Shown: in pieces, positions 2,583-26,470 of the stretch
Numbering within the stretch: position 1 is the stretch's first letter
Layout: each line of letters starts with the position of its first letter
Virus record (IMG/VR): IMGVR_UViG_3300025853_000443
Span: 1 to 29,805 of that record
DNA from: a virus
DNA: 29,805 nucleotides
Strand: one strand, 5' to 3'
Notes under the pieces: generated by a model
What the model was told of the DNA's origin: nothing
What the model saw: the letters and a program-made list of their open reading frames with translations, nothing else
Databases searched by the model: none
Made by a program: the position numbers and the translations under genes

Positions 2583-3350
2583 ATGATACAATTATTAAAC
2601 GGAGAAAAGTGGGATGAGCAAGAGTTACTTGCTAAAATGGATGACGATAGTTTTTATTACGGACACTTAGGCAAACACGCACTAAGTAGCAGTAGTATTA
2701 AATTATTACAGTCAAGTCCTAAAAAGTACCATTACGTTACACAATACGGTAATGAAGAAAGCCAAGCATTAAGAGATGGGTGGTTATTCCATACAAGCAT
2801 ATTAGAGCCTGAAGTATTTAATTCACAGATATTTGTGGATGTACAAAGCAAGAACACAAAGAAGTATAAAGAAGCACTTGCGGAACACGGTAAAGTTTTT
2901 ACTATGAAAGAAAAGTCAGATGCTGAAAGATTAGCTGATGCGTTTTTAAAAAACGAACAAGCATTACAACTCATCACAGATTGTGATTTTGAAGTACCTG
3001 CTGTTGGAATTATTGACGATTTACCACTTAGGGGTAAGGCTGATGTATTAGGTAAGCACGGTATTGTAGATTTAAAAACTACAACTGACATACGAGCATT
3101 CCCTTATTCAGCTAAAAAGTACGGGTACGATATACAGGCTTATATTTACTGCCAATTATTTAACGTGCCTTACACAGAGTTTAAGTTTATAGTTTTAGAC
3201 AAAGGCACTTTAGATATTGCTATATATGACGTAAGTGAGCAATTTTATTTTGACGGCGAACGCAAAACATTAGAATCAATAGAAAGGTATAAAATGTTTT
3301 TTATAGAAAATGCAGATTTAAACAGCTACACATTAAGGGGGACATTATGA
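2583..3350 (+). CDS. RecE/YqaJ-like PD-(D/E)XK exonuclease
   Basis: A 255-residue protein fitting the phage family of putative exodeoxyribonuclease VIII PDDEXK-like domains. Visible landmarks in order are LSSSSIKLLQSSPKKYHY (about 34-51), the conserved His in GWLFHTSILEPE (His70), RGKADVLGKHGIVDLKTTTD (Asp154 and the D-x-K pair 163/165) and QAYIY (Gln185, the RecB-family motif). Such enzymes resect double-stranded ends so that a single-strand annealing protein can act. No RecT-like annealase is recognised, but two ssDNA-binding-like proteins are encoded around 29 kb. The start follows an A-rich leader (AATAGAGAAATT). The next gene overlaps by 4 nt. Confidence 0.8.
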   Translation: MIQLLNGEKWDEQELLAKMDDDSFYYGHLGKHALSSSSIKLLQSSPKKYHYVTQYGNEESQALRDGWLFHTSILEPEVFNSQIFVDVQSKNTKKYKEALAEHGKVFTMKEKSDAERLADAFLKNEQALQLITDCDFEVPAVGIIDDLPLRGKADVLGKHGIVDLKTTTDIRAFPYSAKKYGYDIQAYIYCQLFNVPYTEFKFIVLDKGTLDIAIYDVSEQFYFDGERKTLESIERYKMFFIENADLNSYTLRGTL

Positions 3351-3571
3351 TTAAATTATTTGAAGACGACTGGGGTGTTGATAACAGTCCAACAGACAAC
3401 ACAGAAATAACAACTACTATTTTATATTTTAGTGAAGAAGAATTAAAGTTGTTTAAAAGGCTATGTAAAAAAGGCATACAAATACTATATAAAGAAGAAT
3501 ACCAACAAAAGGGTAATTTAAGTGATTTTTTATTACACACTTTAAAAGAAAATTATGGCAAAGACATATAA
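3347..3571 (+). CDS. Hypothetical acidic protein
   Basis: A 74-residue protein with an acidic N-terminus and a helical middle (YFSEEELKLFKRLCKKGIQILY), ending in a segment like that of small phage accessory proteins. The start overlaps the exonuclease stop (ATGA) and the end overlaps the dioxygenase start by 17 nt. No family recognised. Confidence 0.6.
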   Translation: MIKLFEDDWGVDNSPTDNTEITTTILYFSEEELKLFKRLCKKGIQILYKEEYQQKGNLSDFLLHTLKENYGKDI

Positions 3572-4427
3572 GTTAAAAAAGAAACTAACAGACAAACAGG
3601 CGGCTAAATTAAAATCAAAGTATTTAGACCAAACTCATTATGATTTATTAATAGACCACGATGCAGATGGCTATGATTTAGCAACAGGCGAATTACTATT
3701 TAGGTTTAGAAAGAATGCAATACCTATGGATTTACTTAAAACAGGTTATAATTCTTTTAAAGACAGCATACAAGTAACCGAAAGCAGGGGTGCAGCAAGT
3801 GGCAGCATACATAAAAGAATACGTAAAGACGGAAGTGTAAGTAATATAACAGTTGGTAATAAGGTAACTTCTGGCAATGTAGGCTATATGGATAAAAGCG
3901 CAATGACACACTATTGCAGGAAAACAGCTTTTGCTAAAAAACATTTTGATAAATTTAAAAAAGGAATACCTTTTGTAAAATATATAGACGATAAATACAA
4001 AGAATTATGTCCTGAACATTACGCAAGGCAATCAGCAATAGCGCAAGGGACAAACAAAAATTACATAATACAAGATACTTGTTTTACAACTGTTACTGTA
4101 AATAAAAATTTTAGAACAGCAGTACACCAAGACTCTGGCGATTACAGGGATGGGTTTGGCAATTTAATTGTTTACAGGGAAGGTCATTATGATGAAGGCT
4201 ATTTTGTATTACCCGAATACCGTGTTGCTGTTGATTTACAAAACACAGACATACTTTTTGTTGATGTGCATAAGTGGCACGGTAATACTGAATTTAAAAA
4301 TTGTTCCGAAGACTGGCTCCGCATAAGTTTTGTACTATATTATAGAGAGTATATGTATAAATGTGAAAGTCCAACAAAACAATTACAAACATTAAAACAA
4401 GAAAAGACAGGATATTTAACACTATAA
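3555..4427 (+). CDS. TET/JBP-family 2-oxoglutarate/Fe(II) dioxygenase (DNA base hydroxylase)
   Basis: A 290-residue protein. The C-terminal half carries the double-stranded beta-helix signature of 2OG-Fe(II) dioxygenases: NKNFRTAVHQDSGD gives the H-x-D iron ligands (His191, Asp193), DVHKWHGN gives the distal His (His242), and LRISFVLYYR gives the Arg that binds 2-oxoglutarate (Arg256, 14 residues after the distal His). Upstream, SRGAASGSI (about 77-85) and TCFTTVTVN resemble conserved TET/JBP elements. In known family members these enzymes hydroxylate 5-methylcytosine or thymine within DNA. It is followed at once by a nuclease-like gene and a glycosyltransferase of the type found with phage TET genes, which supports a role in making hypermodified DNA. 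No cytosine C5-methyltransferase is seen, so the substrate base is open. Confidence 0.8.
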   Translation: MAKTYKLKKKLTDKQAAKLKSKYLDQTHYDLLIDHDADGYDLATGELLFRFRKNAIPMDLLKTGYNSFKDSIQVTESRGAASGSIHKRIRKDGSVSNITVGNKVTSGNVGYMDKSAMTHYCRKTAFAKKHFDKFKKGIPFVKYIDDKYKELCPEHYARQSAIAQGTNKNYIIQDTCFTTVTVNKNFRTAVHQDSGDYRDGFGNLIVYREGHYDEGYFVLPEYRVAVDLQNTDILFVDVHKWHGNTEFKNCSEDWLRISFVLYYREYMYKCESPTKQLQTLKQEKTGYLTL

Positions 4428-4429
4428 CA

Positions 4430-4891
4430 ATGCAAACACATAAATACAAACAAGCAAATAATTTTGAAGAATACATTTACGATTATTTTAATGACGAACT
4501 TAATATAACTTTAAGCCATTTTGTAAGCAAAAAAGGGCAATACGAAAGAGGTGAAAACAGGCAGGGGGTTGAAATAAAAAACGATCAATCATATAATAAA
4601 TACAATAACCTATTTATATCAGTTTTAAGAAAATACCCAGATAAGCAATACCCAAGTGGTATATTTAGGGAAACTAAAACAAAGCAGATGTTTTATGTAA
4701 TTGGTGACCAAAACAATTTTTGGCTGTTTTCAACAAAACAACTTAAAGATTATTATAATAAAAACAACCCTGAACTTAAAAAGGGGTTCACAACACAAAC
4801 AGGCGGAACAGATTATGGTTTTTTATTAAGCATAAGTAAAGCAAACCAATTATGCATCCATAAATATAGTAAACAATTACAGCTATGCTAA
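4430..4891 (+). CDS. PD-(D/E)XK-like restriction-endonuclease-fold protein
   Basis: A 153-residue protein placed between the dioxygenase and glycosyltransferase genes. GENRQGVEIKND (Glu48-x-Lys50) looks like the metal-binding E-x-K of PD-(D/E)XK enzymes. It is followed by strands YNNLFISVLRK and TKQMFYVIGDQNNFWLFSTKQLKDYY, a pattern I associate with restriction-endonuclease-fold domains. It starts 2 nt after the previous stop and overlaps the next start by 7 nt, so the three genes are co-translated. It might cut unmodified host or competitor DNA, or take part in the modification pathway; both are inference. The catalytic acid upstream of the E-x-K is not clear. Confidence 0.5.
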   Translation: MQTHKYKQANNFEEYIYDYFNDELNITLSHFVSKKGQYERGENRQGVEIKNDQSYNKYNNLFISVLRKYPDKQYPSGIFRETKTKQMFYVIGDQNNFWLFSTKQLKDYYNKNNPELKKGFTTQTGGTDYGFLLSISKANQLCIHKYSKQLQLC

Positions 4892-5640
4892 ATATATTTA
4901 TACCCACTAAAGCAAGATACAATAATTGCAAGACAGCAGATTTACTGGCAAATCATAAGGGCTTATATTTAGTAGTTGAGCCACAAGAAGAACAAGCATA
5001 TAAAAACAAATACCCTAATAGTAATTTTATTGTTTTACCGCAAAACAACAAGGGCATTGTGTATGTAAGAAACTATATAAAAAAATATACAGAACAAAAT
5101 AATATTGATGAATATTGGCAATTAGATGATGACATTACTGCACTTTATTACAGGGATGGCACAAAATTAATTAAAGACAACAATGTGCTTATAAATGCCC
5201 AAAAACAATTTAAAGAACTTGATGTATCTTTAGGAGCTTTAGAATACAGGCAATATGCTTGGAGCGCAACAAAGCCTATTATATTAGATAGCTTTTGTGA
5301 TTCTTGTGTGTACGTTAGTAATAATAAGATTAAAAACATATATTACAGGGAACAAGTGTCAGGAAAGGAGGATAGAGATTTTGCTATGCAGGTAATAAAA
5401 CAAGGTTTAAAAACAGGCAGGACTACATTGTATGCCTTTTCTGCACCGCCTAACGGTAGTAACGGTGGTGGTTTAAAAGAAATTTTTTACGATGTAAATG
5501 GCAAAGAATTAAATTCTTGTAAAAAAATGGTTGAACTATGGGGAGATGAAATATGCCAACATATAGTAAAAAAAGATGGCAGGAATGATTTAAAAATTAA
5601 TTGGAAAAAAATAAACAGTAAACAAATATCTTTATTTTAA
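4885..5640 (+). CDS. TET-associated-type glycosyltransferase (GT-A fold)
   Basis: A 251-residue protein. MLNIFIPTKARYNNCKTADLL starts a nucleotide-sugar-binding strand-loop. YLVVEPQEEQ and NNKGIVYVRN follow, then the metal-binding acidic triad WQLDDDI (Asp81-83), and KEDRDFAMQV (161-170) can provide the catalytic acid region. This order matches the glycosyltransferases that accompany phage TET/JBP genes and the GREB1 C-terminal domain. The expected job is to transfer a sugar to the hydroxymethyl base made by the upstream dioxygenase, giving glucosylated-type DNA that resists host nucleases. The sugar cannot be predicted. The start overlaps the nuclease-like gene and its stop TAATG overlaps the next start. 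Confidence 0.72.
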   Translation: MLNIFIPTKARYNNCKTADLLANHKGLYLVVEPQEEQAYKNKYPNSNFIVLPQNNKGIVYVRNYIKKYTEQNNIDEYWQLDDDITALYYRDGTKLIKDNNVLINAQKQFKELDVSLGALEYRQYAWSATKPIILDSFCDSCVYVSNNKIKNIYYREQVSGKEDRDFAMQVIKQGLKTGRTTLYAFSAPPNGSNGGGLKEIFYDVNGKELNSCKKMVELWGDEICQHIVKKDGRNDLKINWKKINSKQISLF

Positions 5641-5774: not shown

Positions 5775-5922
5775 AACAACACTAATAAAAAGTTATGCCT
5801 ATTTTAAAGGCGAACTACAAAGAGCATATGAAAACGATAACGAGAAACTAATAAACTATTATACAGATGAGATACACAAAATACTTACAAGGTACTACAC
5901 AGGAACAAAGAACACAGATTAA
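5767..5922 (+). CDS. Small basic hypothetical protein
   Basis: A 51-residue protein with a Tyr- and Lys-rich sequence (KSYAYFKGELQRAYEND...KLINYYTDEIHKILTRYY), probably helical. It overlaps the preceding gene by 8 nt and the DnaA-like gene by 56 nt in a different frame, which makes either its end or the start of the next gene uncertain. Function unknown. Confidence 0.5.
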   Translation: MRKTTLIKSYAYFKGELQRAYENDNEKLINYYTDEIHKILTRYYTGTKNTD

Positions 5923-6370
5923 GAAGCTAAAGAGCATAATTAAACAAATAACAGACATAGACATAGAGAGGGTAAGTAGGAAACAAGAAGTAGTAAGAGC
6001 AAGAAAGGTTTACTTTAAAGCACTAAGCCAAACAACTAAAATAAGTTATACAGCTATGGCACATTCGGTAGGTCAGACACACGCTACAACACTACACGCA
6101 TTAAGAAACTTTGACTATGATTATAAGACAGATGTATTACTAAAAGAACTATACGATAGTGTATATGATGTATTTGTAAAGGGTGTGAAGATTAAAACTC
6201 CCGATGACTTTGTACAGGAAAACCTTAGGATGCAACAAAAGATTAGTGAACTAACAAATGAAATTGAGCAACTAAGAAACCAGTTAAAAGAAGCAAGAAG
6301 CAACAACATAAGACCAAGAAACCAACAAACAAAGATATACAACGCATCAGAAACAATAGTAGCATTTTAA
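5867..6370 (+). CDS. DnaA C-terminal-domain-like DNA-binding protein
   Basis: A 167-residue protein. Residues about 35-82 resemble the DnaA domain IV helix-turn-helix: VSRKQEVVRARKVYF matches the aR.va.yl helix, and SVGQTHATTLHALRNF matches the signature GRDHTTVLHA. DnaA-like domains read 9-bp origin boxes, so an origin- or promoter-binding role is plausible. The rest (about 103-150) is a predicted coiled coil for dimerisation. No AAA+ ATPase domain is present, so it is not a full DnaA. The start overlaps the upstream gene by 56 nt; a later start would still keep the domain. Confidence 0.65.
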   Translation: MRYTKYLQGTTQEQRTQIKKLKSIIKQITDIDIERVSRKQEVVRARKVYFKALSQTTKISYTAMAHSVGQTHATTLHALRNFDYDYKTDVLLKELYDSVYDVFVKGVKIKTPDDFVQENLRMQQKISELTNEIEQLRNQLKEARSNNIRPRNQQTKIYNASETIVAF

Positions 6371-15590: not shown

Positions 15591-15623
15591 TAAAATTAAA
15601 AATAAACACGTTATATTAATATG
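15591..15623 (+). promoter_or_regulatory. Putative phage late promoter 3 (TAAAA - 13 nt - CGTTATATTAATATG)
   Basis: TAAAA (15591-15595) directly after the tape measure stop, a 13-nt spacer, then CGTTATATTAATATG (15609-15623), where the last ATG is the protease start. It matches the other sites with the same spacing to the start codon. Confidence 0.6.
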
Positions 15624-16550
15624 AGAATTGTAGAACTTATACTTGACGAGGATAGTGTAGCAGGAATAGAGGCTATATCAATAGTAGAAAACCCTGCCAT
15701 TGAAGAAGATTTTATAGCACTAAACTCACAAGAAATACAATTAGCAGAAGTAGACAAAGACAAGCAAATACTTGTAGGTGCGTTATTAGTCCCTAATAAG
15801 CCCATATACAGACGTAAAGGCGATGATGAGTATTATATATATTTCTCTAAAGATACTATCCGTAAGGCTTCAGAAATGTACTTAATTAAAGGCAACCAAA
15901 ACAACAGTACTTTAGAACACCATTACAAACTATCAGGGCTATCACTTGTTGAGAGTTGGATAGTAGAAGATGAGGTACACGATAAGTCAAGAAAGTACAA
16001 TATGGAAGTGCCTGTTGGTACTTGGATGGGAGTAGTAAAAGTAAACAATTCAGAGGTTTGGAATGACTTTGTAAAGACAGGTAAAGTAAAAGGGTTTTCA
16101 ATAGAGGGCTACTTTGTAGATAAAATGGAACGCCCTAACGAGCCTATAAACGACTTTGAAGAAGAAGAAGCAGAGGAGATGTTGTCTTATATCCGTAGAA
16201 TTGTTAGAGATGACAAAAGGTATAAGAATGGCAAAAAAGAAGAATTAGAAAGCTACTCTGACTATCCTGATGCTGTAAAAAACAATGCACAAAGAGGCAT
16301 AGACCTAAACAAAGAAGTAAACAATAAATGTGCAACAGACGTAGGTAAGATAAGAGCGCAACAATTAGCACAGGGCAAACCTATAAGCATAAACACTATA
16401 AAACGTATGTACTCTTATTTATCAAGAGCAGAGGAGTATTACGATGAAGGAGATACAAAGGCTTGTGGTACTATATCTTATTTATTGTGGGGTGGCAAAG
16501 CTGCTAAACGTTGGGCTGAAAGTAAACTAAAAGAATTAGACCAACTGTAA
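15621..16550 (+). CDS. Prohead protease, XkdF-like, with extra C-terminal domain
   Basis: A 309-residue protein. Residues 1-170 resemble XkdF-type phage serine proteases: strands VELILDEDSVAGIEAISIVENPAIEEDF and QILVGALLVPNKPIYR, a candidate catalytic His in STLEHHYK (100/101), ESWIVED, and the Ser in VKGFSIEGYF (160). The C-terminal part (about 213-309; SDYPDAVKNNAQRGIDLN..., RMYSYLSRAEEYY, GTISYLLWGGKAAKRWAESKL) is an extra domain that I recall attached to other phage proteins. It would process scaffold or capsid inside the prohead. It begins at late promoter motif 3 and its stop overlaps the next start (TAATG). Confidence 0.75.
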   Translation: MRIVELILDEDSVAGIEAISIVENPAIEEDFIALNSQEIQLAEVDKDKQILVGALLVPNKPIYRRKGDDEYYIYFSKDTIRKASEMYLIKGNQNNSTLEHHYKLSGLSLVESWIVEDEVHDKSRKYNMEVPVGTWMGVVKVNNSEVWNDFVKTGKVKGFSIEGYFVDKMERPNEPINDFEEEEAEEMLSYIRRIVRDDKRYKNGKKEELESYSDYPDAVKNNAQRGIDLNKEVNNKCATDVGKIRAQQLAQGKPISINTIKRMYSYLSRAEEYYDEGDTKACGTISYLLWGGKAAKRWAESKLKELDQL

Positions 16551-22107: not shown

Positions 22108-22202
22108 GAATGTACAAACCAAAGAATAAAAATATAGTTAAACTAAAAAAGTATATAGATGCCAAACGAAATATATCACAGAAGCGAGTGGGGAAATCCT
22201 AA
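22104..22202 (+). CDS. Very small basic peptide
   Basis: A 32-residue basic peptide (MRMYKPKNKNIVKLKKYIDAKRNI...). It starts in an ATGA overlap with the connector stop and overlaps the next gene by 44 nt in another frame. The start spacing fits coupling, but the short length makes it uncertain. Confidence 0.4.
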   Translation: MRMYKPKNKNIVKLKKYIDAKRNISQKRVGKS

Positions 22203-23994
22203 TCCTGAAGGTTGGGGAGATATTTACTTTGACCCTGCTGCTACTAATAAGCTGTACAATCATTCTGACTATTACGAGAACTCTGATGGCACAGATAAGA
22301 TATTAAGGGATATACCTAACAAAGCGAGTATTACGCTTACTCCTACTGCTTATAGTGATGGCTCTATAAATACTGTTATACCGCCTTATCAAGTCTTACC
22401 ACAAGAATTAGTTACTAATGGTAATTTTGATACGGATAGTGATTGGGATTTAGGAAGTGCTTGGAGTATAGGAAACGGTAAAGCATTATATGATGGAAGT
22501 TCTAATGGTTCTTTAATTCGACAATATGGTATTTTAACAAGTGGAAAAAAATATAAAGCAAGTTTTAATGTTTTAGATAATAGTGGAAGATTTAGAATAA
22601 GTGTCGATGGTGGTAGTTCTGTTTATAAAACATATACGACAGGTAACGGATATTATACTTTTGAATTTACATCTATCACAAGTGATTTTAGAATTGGTGC
22701 TTCAATGGCTGACAATGCTGATACTTTTTCAATAGACAACGTAAGCGTAAAAGAAATACAAGAAGCCGACTTTGACTTTAGTAGAGGTTCAAGTGCTACA
22801 CGAGTAAACGAGAAAGGACTTATAGAAGATGTTGCAAGTGGTATTCCAAGAATAGATTACACAACAGGTTTTGGTAGTTGGTTATTAGAGCCACAGAGGA
22901 CTAATTTAATTACTTATAGTGAGGATTTTAGTGATGCATCTTGGACAGCTTCAAACACAAGTGTCAGCTCCAATCAAACTACTTCTCCTGATGGTTCAGT
23001 AAATGCTGATAAACTTACAGATAATGCAACAAGTAATGTACACAGAATAAGAGATGCGGTTTCATTAAGTGCATCTACTGATTATTCTTTAAGTGTATTT
23101 GCTAAAAAAGATACATTATCTAATATACAACTTGCCCTTGTAAATACATCTAATAGTAATACAATTAGTAAAGTATTTGATTTAGAAAATGGTATTATAG
23201 GCGAAGAATTATCACAAGGCGGAACTACGGTTTCAGATGCAAAAATAGAGAATTTTGGTAATGGTTGGTATAGGTGTACAATCGTAGGTCAATTAGGTTC
23301 TACACCAAATCAATATCAAATAAGTTTAGCTACTAAAACAACAGGTAATTCAGATACGTTAAGTCAAGTAACTTATAGTGGAGATGGAACAGGTAGTGTG
23401 TTTTTATATGGCGCACAACTCGAAGCAGGAAGCTATCCAACATCCTACATCGTTTCCAATAGTGGAAGTACCACCACTCGTGCTGCTGAAACAGCAACCA
23501 ATAGCGGTAATGCCGACTTGTTTAACGATAGTGAAGGGGTTTTGTATGCAGAGATTGCAGCTTTAGCTGATGATGGTACTAATAGAATTTTAGGTATTAG
23601 TAATGGTGGGGATTTTAATAATTCTGTTTTATTAAGATTTTCAAGTTCATCAAATAGAATACAAGCACAAGTTAGGTTAGGCGGTGTGTATCAATGTAGT
23701 TTAAATTATGATGTTAGTGATGCAATTGAATTTAATAAAATTGCTTTTAAATATAAACAGAATGATTTTAGTTTATACGTCAATGGTGTAGAAAGAGCAA
23801 CAGATACAACTGGCAATGTTATTACAGGGTTAGATGTTTTAGACTTTGATATTTCAACTACAAATGAATTTTACGGAAAAACAAAAGAACTTGCAGTATT
23901 TAAAGAAGCATTAACAGATGCAGAGTTGGAAAGTTTAACAAGTTGGATTAGCTTTACAGAAATGGCAACCGATTTAGAATACACATTAGAATGA
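22159..23994 (+). CDS. Receptor-binding/tail-fibre-type protein 1 (with CBM-like insert)
   Basis: A 611-residue beta-rich protein, the first of three tandem paralogs. Residues about 84-200 form a carbohydrate-binding-module-like unit (LVTNGNFDTDSDWDLGS ... SIDNVSVKEI). Residues about 204-258 hold the shared core DFDFSRGSSATRVNEKGLIEDV and WLLEPQRTNLITYSEDFS. A central beta-sandwich then ends in YGAQLEAGSYPTSYI, and a LamG/concanavalin-A-like domain closes with ALTDAELESLTS plus a short extension. Such proteins bind surface polysaccharides and decide host range. They follow the connector and precede the lysis genes. Its stop overlaps the next start (ATGA). Confidence 0.65.
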   Translation: MPNEIYHRSEWGNPNPEGWGDIYFDPAATNKLYNHSDYYENSDGTDKILRDIPNKASITLTPTAYSDGSINTVIPPYQVLPQELVTNGNFDTDSDWDLGSAWSIGNGKALYDGSSNGSLIRQYGILTSGKKYKASFNVLDNSGRFRISVDGGSSVYKTYTTGNGYYTFEFTSITSDFRIGASMADNADTFSIDNVSVKEIQEADFDFSRGSSATRVNEKGLIEDVASGIPRIDYTTGFGSWLLEPQRTNLITYSEDFSDASWTASNTSVSSNQTTSPDGSVNADKLTDNATSNVHRIRDAVSLSASTDYSLSVFAKKDTLSNIQLALVNTSNSNTISKVFDLENGIIGEELSQGGTTVSDAKIENFGNGWYRCTIVGQLGSTPNQYQISLATKTTGNSDTLSQVTYSGDGTGSVFLYGAQLEAGSYPTSYIVSNSGSTTTRAAETATNSGNADLFNDSEGVLYAEIAALADDGTNRILGISNGGDFNNSVLLRFSSSSNRIQAQVRLGGVYQCSLNYDVSDAIEFNKIAFKYKQNDFSLYVNGVERATDTTGNVITGLDVLDFDISTTNEFYGKTKELAVFKEALTDAELESLTSWISFTEMATDLEYTLE

Positions 23995-25289
23995 GCATAT
24001 ACGACAAGGCATCTTTAGTACAAATACCAAGTGGCTACAAGGGTGGTGGTACAAAAAACCTATATTCTGTTGTGCCTAATACTGCTGATGGAGATTTTGA
24101 CTATTCAGGTGGTACTAACGGGACACGAGTAAATAAAGATGGTCTTATAGAAACAATAGCTGCTGATACGCCAAGACTAAACTATCCTTTATTAAACGGA
24201 GTAGTACAAAGCAATCCTACGCTATTGTTAGAACCACAGAGGATTAACATATATACATATAGCGAAGATTTAAGTCAAGGTACTACGCTTACCAATACAT
24301 CAGTAAATGAAACAAGTATCGTATCTCCTGATGGTGCTTTAACAGGAAACAAGCTAACACAAACAAGTGGTGCGTATTTAAGAAAGAATTTAAGTGTTGT
24401 ATTAAGCGGTACTTATGCTTGGTCGTTCTTTGCTAAAAAAGGAGATTTAAGGTATTTAAACGCAAGAAGTTTATTTGTGCTTAATGGTACTACACCTGCT
24501 AACGGAAACACTATTATTGACCTTGATACTAATACAATAGCATACAAAGGCACAAATGTAACAAGCGCAACAATAGAGCAATATCCTAATGATTGGATAA
24601 AAGTAGAAATAGTAGCAACAGATAACGCAACAGGAAGTGGAGATTTTGTAGATTTCTTTTTTACTGATAGCGATACGAGTACACAAAGTACAGGTGTAGC
24701 GGGTAATGGTTATATATGGGGCGTACAGTTTGAGAGCGGAAGCTACCCAACAAGCTACATACCAACAACAGTAGCAGTTACAAGGACAGTAGAACAATGC
24801 GAAGTAACAAGTGGTTTAGAAAACATAATAGGACAAACAGAGGGTACAGTATTTATAGATTTTGAGTATTTATACGAAACTACTAGTAGTAGCAGTACAG
24901 ACGCTTTAATGGATATTTTTGTGGTGGGTACAGCTAGCGATTTAAGCGAGGGTATAAGTATAGATAACTACCGTAGTCAATTTAGGGTGTTTGTACAAGG
25001 TAGTGGAATGACTACCCAAAGCATAGGAAATAATACTACTGGCGCAGCTCAACCAAACACACGCTACAAATTAGCGGTAAAATATAAAACAGGCGACTGT
25101 AAGGCGTATCTAAACGGTAGCTTATTAGGTTCTTCAACAGGAACGGTAAGTTTTGCAACAGATTTAGACGGTATGTTTTTTAGCTATAATGACAGTAGTA
25201 GGTCATTTAAAAACCAAAAAAGAGTATATCAATTAATGGTATTCAACGAAGCATTAACAGACGCAGAACTTCAAACACTTACAAGCTAA
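23991..25289 (+). CDS. Receptor-binding/tail-fibre-type protein 2 (paralog)
   Basis: A 432-residue paralog of the upstream protein. It lacks the CBM-like insert but keeps DFDYSGGTNGTRVNKDGLIETI, LLLEPQRINIYTYSEDLS, WGVQFESGSYPTSYIPT and the C-terminal sequence ALTDAELQTLTS, which is its very end. The N-terminal ~35 residues (SLVQIPSGYKGGGTKNLYSVVP) are unlike those of its neighbours and may attach it to another tail part. It overlaps upstream by ATGA and its stop is TAATG with the next start. Confidence 0.65.
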   Translation: MSIYDKASLVQIPSGYKGGGTKNLYSVVPNTADGDFDYSGGTNGTRVNKDGLIETIAADTPRLNYPLLNGVVQSNPTLLLEPQRINIYTYSEDLSQGTTLTNTSVNETSIVSPDGALTGNKLTQTSGAYLRKNLSVVLSGTYAWSFFAKKGDLRYLNARSLFVLNGTTPANGNTIIDLDTNTIAYKGTNVTSATIEQYPNDWIKVEIVATDNATGSGDFVDFFFTDSDTSTQSTGVAGNGYIWGVQFESGSYPTSYIPTTVAVTRTVEQCEVTSGLENIIGQTEGTVFIDFEYLYETTSSSSTDALMDIFVVGTASDLSEGISIDNYRSQFRVFVQGSGMTTQSIGNNTTGAAQPNTRYKLAVKYKTGDCKAYLNGSLLGSSTGTVSFATDLDGMFFSYNDSSRSFKNQKRVYQLMVFNEALTDAELQTLTS

Positions 25290-26470
25290 TGGCAAATACA
25301 TTTAATTTAGGAAACGGTAATTGGGCGCAAAAGACAGAGAATTTACTTGCGTATAATGCCGAGAATAACAACTACAAACCTCTACCTTTTGACTTTGACA
25401 GGGCATCAACAGCAACAAGGGTAAATAGAGATGGGTTAATCGAAACAGTACGTATTGACGAACCACGTATTGACTTTCTAAATAACACTAAAGGGCATTT
25501 GCTATTAGAGCCACAGAGGCAGAATATTATTACTTATAGTGAGGATTTTAGTGAGTGGTCGCTCGGTCAAAGTGGAACAGGTTCTGCTGTTGTAATTTCT
25601 AACAATGCTATTTCTCCTGATGGAAATAATACTGCCGATAAGGTTGTATTAGATATGAACGGTGGAACTACTTCTTCTGATTTTAGTTTTATTACCATTG
25701 GTTACACATCTTCTGCTACTACATTTACTCTTTCTTGTTATTTAAAAGGGGTTAATGGCGGAGAAGAAATATTTTTTGATTTCGATAACCAAAATAGCAA
25801 TTTAATAACACTTACTACTGAATGGGTAAGATATGATTTTACCAAAACTGTTAGCGCAACAGGCACAAGACTTATAAGAATTGGATTAAGAGGAGGTTCT
25901 ACTACTGACGACACCGCATCTTTTTACGCTTGGGGTGCACAATTAGAGGAAGGAAGCTACGCTACTTCGTATATACCAACGTCAGGACAATCTGGGGGTG
26001 TAACAAGAAGTGCGGAAACTTGTAATAATGCAGGTAACTTAAATGTGTTTAATGATAGTGAGGGTGTGTTGTATGCAGAGATAAGTGCTTTGGCTAATGA
26101 TAGTACATATAGGTTAATGAGTATTTCAGACGGAACAGCTATTAATAGAATAGTATTAGGGTATAGCAATGGCAGTAATCTATTACTTGTACAAGTACGT
26201 TCAAGTGGGAATAATGAAGTGGATTTTATATACTCTATTTCAGATATAACATTATATAATAAAATAGCTCTTTTATACAAATCAAACGAAGTAACTATAT
26301 GGGTAAATGGTGTCAAAGGAACATCAGATACATCTGCATCTATGCCAATAGGTTTGAGTGAATTTAATTTTAATTATACAAATTCTTTACCTCTCTACGG
26401 AAACGTTAAAGACGTAAGAGTTTACAACACCGCACTAACAGACGCAGAACTAATAGCATTAACAAGTTAA
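25289..26470 (+). CDS. Receptor-binding/tail-fibre-type protein 3 (paralog)
   Basis: A 393-residue paralog with DFDRASTATRVNRDGLIETV, LLLEPQRQNIITYSEDFS, WGAQLEEGSYATSYIPT and the C-terminal LamG-like part ending ALTDAELIALTS. The nucleotide sequence GAGCCACAGAGG and TTACTTATAGTGAGGATTTT recur almost identically with the first paralog, so duplication or recombination between them is recent or ongoing. Its short N-terminus differs from both others. Confidence 0.65.
   Translation: MANTFNLGNGNWAQKTENLLAYNAENNNYKPLPFDFDRASTATRVNRDGLIETVRIDEPRIDFLNNTKGHLLLEPQRQNIITYSEDFSEWSLGQSGTGSAVVISNNAISPDGNNTADKVVLDMNGGTTSSDFSFITIGYTSSATTFTLSCYLKGVNGGEEIFFDFDNQNSNLITLTTEWVRYDFTKTVSATGTRLIRIGLRGGSTTDDTASFYAWGAQLEEGSYATSYIPTSGQSGGVTRSAETCNNAGNLNVFNDSEGVLYAEISALANDSTYRLMSISDGTAINRIVLGYSNGSNLLLVQVRSSGNNEVDFIYSISDITLYNKIALLYKSNEVTIWVNGVKGTSDTSASMPIGLSEFNFNYTNSLPLYGNVKDVRVYNTALTDAELIALTS

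Follow-up and report, generated by a model that had tools for sequence, protein, structure and literature searches.

Three adjacent genes on a probably complete small phage genome

We analysed a 29,805-base viral contig (IMG/VR record IMGVR_UViG_3300025853_000443; "the window" denotes this whole stretch of DNA) for a cassette of three genes. They encode a TET/JBP-type 2-oxoglutarate (2OG)-Fe(II) dioxygenase (TET), a PD-(D/E)XK-like protein in the middle (MID) and a TET-associated glycosyltransferase (TAGT). A sequence-only reading had proposed that these adjacent or overlapping genes form a minimal, self-contained system making sugar-decorated DNA. The open reading frames (ORFs) bear out the arrangement: TET and MID are separated by 2 nt, MID and TAGT overlap by 7 nt, and TET itself overlaps the preceding ORF (3347-3571). 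The features of the cassette are the following.

3555..4427, + strand: TET/JBP 2OG-Fe(II) dioxygenase, 290 aa (PF12851, AlphaFold2 model, invariant residues)
4125-4127, 4131-4133, 4278-4280 and 4320-4322, + strand: codons of the TET metal and 2OG residues H191, D193, H242 and R256, respectively
4430..4891, + strand: MID, PD-(D/E)XK-like protein, 153 aa (AlphaFold2 model, fold neighbours, linkage to TET)
4874..4888, + strand: predicted clamp-binding-type tail of MID, residues 149-153, QLQLC variant (relatives mostly QTKLF)
4885..5640, + strand: TAGT, 251 aa, with the W-x-L-D-D-D motif (PF20691, phrog_842, alignment)
5623..5637, + strand: predicted clamp-binding-type tail of TAGT, residues 247-251, QISLF (conserved in the TAGT alignment)

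The assignment of the first gene, proposed from the letters alone together with its four catalytic residues, was upheld by hidden Markov model (HMM) searches and by structure comparison. TET matches PF12851 with E 3.9e-27 and 94.9 bits (cut-off 34.9), and all 54 aligned sequences share H191, D193, H242 and R256. Its AlphaFold2 model (predicted local distance difference test, pLDDT, 90.8) has TET2 (Z 21.2, spanning 258 residues), CMD1 (19.6) and NgTET1 (17.9) as nearest solved folds, with AlkB-type enzymes scoring lower (Z of about 14 or below). Contigs of metagenome-assembled genomes yielded distant TETs only (31-38% identity), and a profile search of PDB sequences with TET, MID and TAGT returned nothing useful. 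The C-terminus of TET (4407-4424) reads TGYLTL or TGYLNL and is strongly conserved in most of 70 relatives; it resembles the hexapeptide clamp motif considered below but has no Q. In one near-identical relative the TET frame is broken (L026:1027-1895), by decay or sequencing error, and other relatives have intact copies. Public records mislabel phage TETs as "queuine tRNA-ribosyltransferase" (also phrog_6059) or "SNF2 DNA repair protein", which masks the family; Zemanar gp2 and proteins of Cr30, DLP6, S-CBWM1 and HTVC112P are such cases.

The third gene likewise proved to be the GT-A-type glycosyltransferase that had been called from its W-x-L-D-D-D signature. TAGT matches PF20691 well above the cut-off (E 4.1e-24, 86.1 bits against 27.5) as well as phrog_842 (E 6e-37); its DxD-type motif is WQLDDD, in which D82 and D83 are invariant. 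MID is more elusive. Its only family match, phrog_13596 (E 1e-4, unknown function), was not usable, and tblastn with the protein against 50,697 phage records gave no match. The AlphaFold2 model (pLDDT 91.6) has top matches that are nearly all PD-(D/E)XK proteins (I-Ssp6803I, Z 7.6; D212, 5.8; RecU, 5.8; PvuII, 5.6), while its Foldseek matches all have E above 0.1 and none is significant. G41, E42, G46, E48, I49 and K50 are invariant in 49 MID sequences, within a conserved GEN-x-Q-G-x-E-I-K stretch (residues 41-50). E48-I-K50 and the invariant E42 are candidates for the (D/E)XK residues, with the placement of the first acid uncertain. Because Z stays below 8, we regard the PD-(D/E)XK fold of the model as likely rather than proven; the earlier nuclease-like call thus probably holds at the level of the fold. 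The last residues of the model have low pLDDT, so the MID tail is probably flexible.

About 104 bases at one end of the contig recur at the other, with a single 1-nt indel between the copies. A DnaB-like helicase ORF runs through the joined ends, and a complete genome of about 29.7 kb is therefore probable. One strand carries the terminase, portal, prohead protease, tape measure, tail, M15 endolysin, holin, NinG, helicase and sigma-like genes.

A conserved neighbourhood with an exchangeable slot

IMG/VR was scanned with TET itself and with alignments of TET and of MID, which gave over 100 loci. Their usual order is exonuclease, 74-aa ORF, TET, MID, slot gene, DnaA-C-like gene and terminase, where the slot is the position occupied by TAGT in the window. 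The flanking members of this series lie in the window as follows.

2583..3350, + strand: DUF3799/exonuclease VIII-like recombination gene, upstream (PF12684, E 5e-19; phrog_412, E 4e-35)
3347..3571, + strand: conserved 74-aa ORF, syntenic partner immediately preceding TET in almost every locus (66 distinct copies)
5867..6370, + strand: DnaA C-terminal-like helix-turn-helix protein, conserved downstream flank (PF08299, E 6e-6, below cut-off; synteny)

The TET-MID-TAGT arrangement is kept in dozens of independent viral contigs and is therefore not due to chance. We then took a census of the slot in the 71 distinct TET loci having at least 1.8 kb downstream. It was filled in all of them: by TAGT in 60 (43 with MID and 17 without), by a P-loop NTPase in 10 (all with MID, and six of them also with an amino acid:DNA transferase, ADDT) and by a radical SAM/SPASM protein in one. 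An empty slot was never seen, nor was a glycosyltransferase together with a P-loop protein. The ADDT of these relatives matches PF18724 (E 5e-18) and adjoins a TET that is 79% identical to that of the window. In the radical SAM locus (L099:6858-8736) TET is followed by the radical SAM/SPASM protein and by a 309-aa protein matching no family, both with QxxLF-type ends, possibly for an unknown base modification.

MID follows TET just as regularly: TET lies directly upstream in 58 of 59 scorable MID loci, although MID is missing from 17 of the 71 TET loci. The census and this linkage together indicate that the slot is an exchangeable, predicted decoration step and that MID is a dedicated but dispensable partner of TET. 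MID might instead be a recombination or packaging nuclease that merely sits between TET and TAGT, and its fold neighbours do include the RecU and Hjc resolvases. We consider this unlikely given the near-constant position behind TET, which holds even though the gene is dispensable, and a clamp-type tail that MID has in common with the slot enzymes. The nuclease-like gene is thus wedged between the two enzymes as first described, but its presence there is not incidental.

C-terminal tails of the clamp-binding type

A feature beyond the sequence-only reading, as is the exchangeable slot, lies at the very ends of the proteins. QL[S/D]LF, or more generally QxxLF, is the common bacterial clamp-binding motif (PMC12309361), with Q at position 1, L or another hydrophobic residue at position 4 and F or another hydrophobic residue at position 5. 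The window's TAGT ends in QISLF and its MID in the variant QLQLC. Among 1433 proteins of the collected loci, de-duplicated and grouped into single-linkage BLAST clusters, the strict C-terminal Q-x-x-L-F occurs in 114 of the 147 proteins of modification type and in a single one of the other 1286. It ends 61/63 glycosyltransferases, 31/55 MIDs, all 12 P-loop proteins, 3/3 short C5-methyltransferases, 2/6 ADDTs and 2/5 N6/N4 methyltransferases of one cluster, as well as another N4/N6 methyltransferase, the radical SAM protein and the protein following it. It is absent from TETs (0/70), terminases (0/36), exonucleases (0/45) and sigma-like proteins (0/41). MID tails alternate between pentapeptide (QTKLF) and hexapeptide forms (QLELSL, QLELTF, QLTLQL); one or the other ends 50 of 55 MIDs, and the same relaxed pattern is found in 20 of the 1286 other proteins. 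The short C5-methyltransferase-like proteins with such tails lie away from the TET slot (L017:1954-2595, L061:5767-6438, L087:1883-2536) and, at 213-223 aa, are unusually small for their family.

In the TAGT alignment, which includes members 21-25% identical to that of the window, Q247 and F251 are as invariant as the catalytic aspartates and L250 is nearly so. Synonymous codons alternate within the motif (CAA/CAG; TTA/TTG/CTA/CTT/CTG; TTT/TTC), and the genes end in three different stop codons, which argues that selection acts on the tail peptide. The common ends could also be a DNA-level trace of cassette exchange, left by recombination at a short shared sequence and devoid of peptide function, as the slot has clearly been swapped between relatives. 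This is highly improbable, and we rejected a recombination remnant, because of the synonymous variation and stop codons, because variation is confined to residues 2 and 3, with 1, 4 and 5 constant, and because genes in other parts of the genomes and on the opposite strand carry the motif at their ends too (P12024S gp51, hemulen gp005).

The latter genes belong to four complete isolated flavobacterial phages (P12024L, P12024S, hemulen6-1 and Nekkels_1; 272 ORFs). Strict QxxLF ends were found on eight of their ORFs, seven modification-type proteins and the 59-aa neighbour of one of them; of nine annotated DNA methyltransferases, five have such an end (2/5 in Flavobacterium phage hemulen6-1 and 1/2 in Cellulophaga phage Nekkels_1). 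In Nonlabens phage P12024L, TET is about 74% identical to that of the window and TAGT, 62% identical, also has the tail (NQLEIF). This phage differs in having no MID, and its TAGT is followed by an N6/N4 methyltransferase ending SQQTLF. Its sister P12024S, which grows on the same host strain (Persicivirga sp. IMCC12024) and is 97.8% identical over 3 kb, has neither TET nor TAGT; at the place of the cassette it encodes a P-loop ATPase-GNAT fusion ending NQISLF (gp24, L149:3314-4453, NC_018271.1 16313-17452), and a distant methyltransferase ends RQESLF. P12024S gp24 may be a base-modifying enzyme of another kind; gp25 (59 aa), which follows it, has the same end.

The partner of these tails would be the host beta clamp, since no beta-clamp gene was recognisable in the window genome or in the 17 records searched. 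Alternatively, the tails could bind something other than a clamp, such as a phage scaffold protein or each other, and so build a modification complex around TET; TET, the common partner, has no tail of its own, and tails are mostly confined to the modification set. We judge this quite improbable. The tail fits the published clamp consensus at positions 1, 4 and 5 and exists in hexapeptide variants, and it is borne by methyltransferases far from any TET, even in phages that have none.

Substrate, proposed mechanism and relation to known systems

As no C5-methyltransferase is encoded, the 5-methyl group on which TET would act must come from thymine or from the host. PF00145 was found neither in the window nor in P12024L and was missing from 15 of the 17 long records searched (present in the other two), and the co-encoded cytosine C5-methyltransferase that marks Burke-type 5-methylcytosine (5mC) TET clusters is lacking from the window genome. 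ADDT-type transferases act on 5-hydroxymethyluracil (5hmU) in known phages. The kinases of the phage 5-hydroxymethyldeoxyuridine (5hmdU) DNA kinase pathway act on 5hmU as well (PMC6449724). Because TETs up to 79% identical to that of the window stand beside ADDT and P-loop genes, the kind of set used on 5hmU, and a C5-methyltransferase is missing, our prediction leans towards thymine being converted to 5hmU rather than 5mC to 5-hydroxymethylcytosine (5hmC). The same cassette could operate on 5mC made by a host or phage C5-methyltransferase, with TET producing 5hmC for glycosylation by TAGT; other phage TETs are reported to work with C5-methyltransferases (PMC12730594). A few relatives do have PF00145 genes (L013, L017, L061, L087, G015), some with a clamp-type tail of their own. 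The scarcity of these genes and the pairing of the same TET group with ADDT and P-loop proteins make this route the less probable of the two for the window.

We propose, and consider rather likely, that the cassette is a host-clamp-tethered, replication-coupled system of post-replicative DNA hypermodification. TET would hydroxylate a 5-methylpyrimidine in phage DNA, as its family and fold suggest, and TAGT would put a sugar on the resulting hydroxymethyl group; with other decorating enzymes in the slot, the final base would differ between phages. The tails, which TAGT and MID share with the majority of decorating enzymes and with several methyltransferases in this marine phage group, would hold the two proteins at the host beta clamp in the wake of the fork, and new phage DNA would be modified while being made. 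MID, the weakest step, would bring its PD-(D/E)XK fold to the same place and perhaps cut or nick unmodified DNA, or else serve as a DNA-binding accessory for the motif-less TET. The modified product may protect phage DNA from restriction or CRISPR. The family calls and the hypermodification proposed in the sequence-only reading are well supported by HMM searches, structure comparison and synteny, and sugar-decorated DNA is probable. The "self-contained" character claimed for the system is doubtful, because the source of the 5-methyl group is not encoded and the tails suggest dependence on the host clamp.

More broadly, it seems somewhat probable that Flavobacteriia phages evolved a general targeting code, in which unrelated DNA-modifying enzymes each gained a C-terminal peptide binding the host clamp. 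These comprise glycosyltransferases, the PD-(D/E)XK-like protein, P-loop NTPases, ADDTs, C5- and N6/N4 methyltransferases, radical SAM and ATPase-GNAT proteins. If TET forms 5hmU directly on the DNA, a 30 kb phage could then hypermodify thymine even without a clamp of its own. The peptide would also predict further DNA-modification enzymes.

Several results weigh against this interpretation. TET lacks the strict tail in all 70 distinct copies, as do four of six ADDTs and four of the nine annotated methyltransferases of the isolates. No tail was found on the outgroup TET, ADDT or TAGT proteins of Zemanar, two Vibrio phages, DLP6, Cr30 and HTVC112P, so a tail general to TET/TAGT phages was rejected; DLP6 and Cr30 encode their own clamp. 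One of seven homologous methyltransferases from phages of other bacteria has it, which does not support a trait of that methyltransferase family. This one, from Streptococcus phage MissD (L157:301-975), ends SQIKLF, and clamp-type tails may reach beyond Flavobacteriia. The tail is thus neither universal nor strictly flavobacterial in the proteins compared. In T4, where the alpha-glucosyltransferase pulls down and co-purifies with the gp45 clamp, clamp binding is not the main determinant of the share of alpha-glucosylation (PMC13216743). The P-loop protein is weakly kinase-like (best match PF18751, E 0.0014), the family and fold matches of TAGT and MID specify neither sugar nor activity, and a 5mC substrate is possible for some of the relatives carrying a C5-methyltransferase. 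The tail motif is short, and the Fisher p of 3e-137 for its enrichment is inflated, because homology to TET or MID was the basis for picking the loci and the sequences share ancestry; recurrence of the peptide at the ends of about eight unrelated families is, in our comparison, the stronger point.

The combination of TET and TAGT in phages is already known, and clusters of this kind are said to have been described by Iyer in 2013 and by Burke in 2021. They are summarised in PMC12730594. The window resembles them in its adjacent oxygenase and glycosyltransferase genes and in the predicted sugar-bearing base, and differs by lacking a C5-methyltransferase, by the inserted MID, the exchangeable slot and the clamp-type tails. 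Slot and tails are the new part: neither was found described in the literature searched, which excluded the text of Burke 2021 and Iyer 2013, and T4 alpha-glucosyltransferase was the only phage modification enzyme with a clamp motif that we found there. The latter (Sommer 2004; PMC13216743) is likewise a DNA glycosyltransferase associated with a sliding clamp, as predicted for the window; T4, however, employs a GT-B enzyme and a clamp of its own, whereas here the enzyme is of GT-A type, no phage clamp is recognisable, and a host-type QxxLF recurs on many unrelated enzymes. The thymidine hypermodification of phages M6, ViI and phi W-14 (5hmdU DNA kinase, then transferases; PMC6449724) is matched by the PF18724 transferase and P-loop NTPase beside TET in the window's relatives. 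In those phages 5hmdU enters as a nucleotide, while here TET would make it in DNA, and the window has TAGT instead. The Cooper-type mycobacteriophage Zemanar also has a TET (gp2) adjoining an ADDT homologue (gp3), but without TAGT or MID alongside and without a QxxLF tail on gp1-gp3. Transposases of many insertion sequence families bind the host beta clamp (PMC4549789); these too are enzymes of mobile elements on a host clamp, but here phage DNA modification enzymes would be concerned.

If the interpretation is true, a small phage without a recognisable clamp gene gets its DNA modified ahead of host defences by docking its modification enzymes on the host clamp. The tail, present on about eight unrelated families, would offer a simple way to flag unknown DNA-modification enzymes by sequence and would yield new DNA-decorating enzymes; it already flags MID, the P-loop protein, the radical SAM enzyme and the ATPase-GNAT protein. 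With P12024L and P12024S growing on one host strain, the question is directly testable.

Elsewhere in the window, the ORF at 15621-16550 was rejected as a methyltransferase despite its match to phrog_1530 ("DNA methyltransferase"), since it also matches protease PHROGs and sits in the head gene region. Near the sigma-like gene, a second protein (1641-2054), with no match in Pfam or PHROG, was judged PD-(D/E)XK-like by eye from its FDA...VIEMK pattern. Three tandem paralogous tail proteins at 22159-26470 have LamG-like C-termini and common DNA repeats, which may point to diversification of receptor binding.

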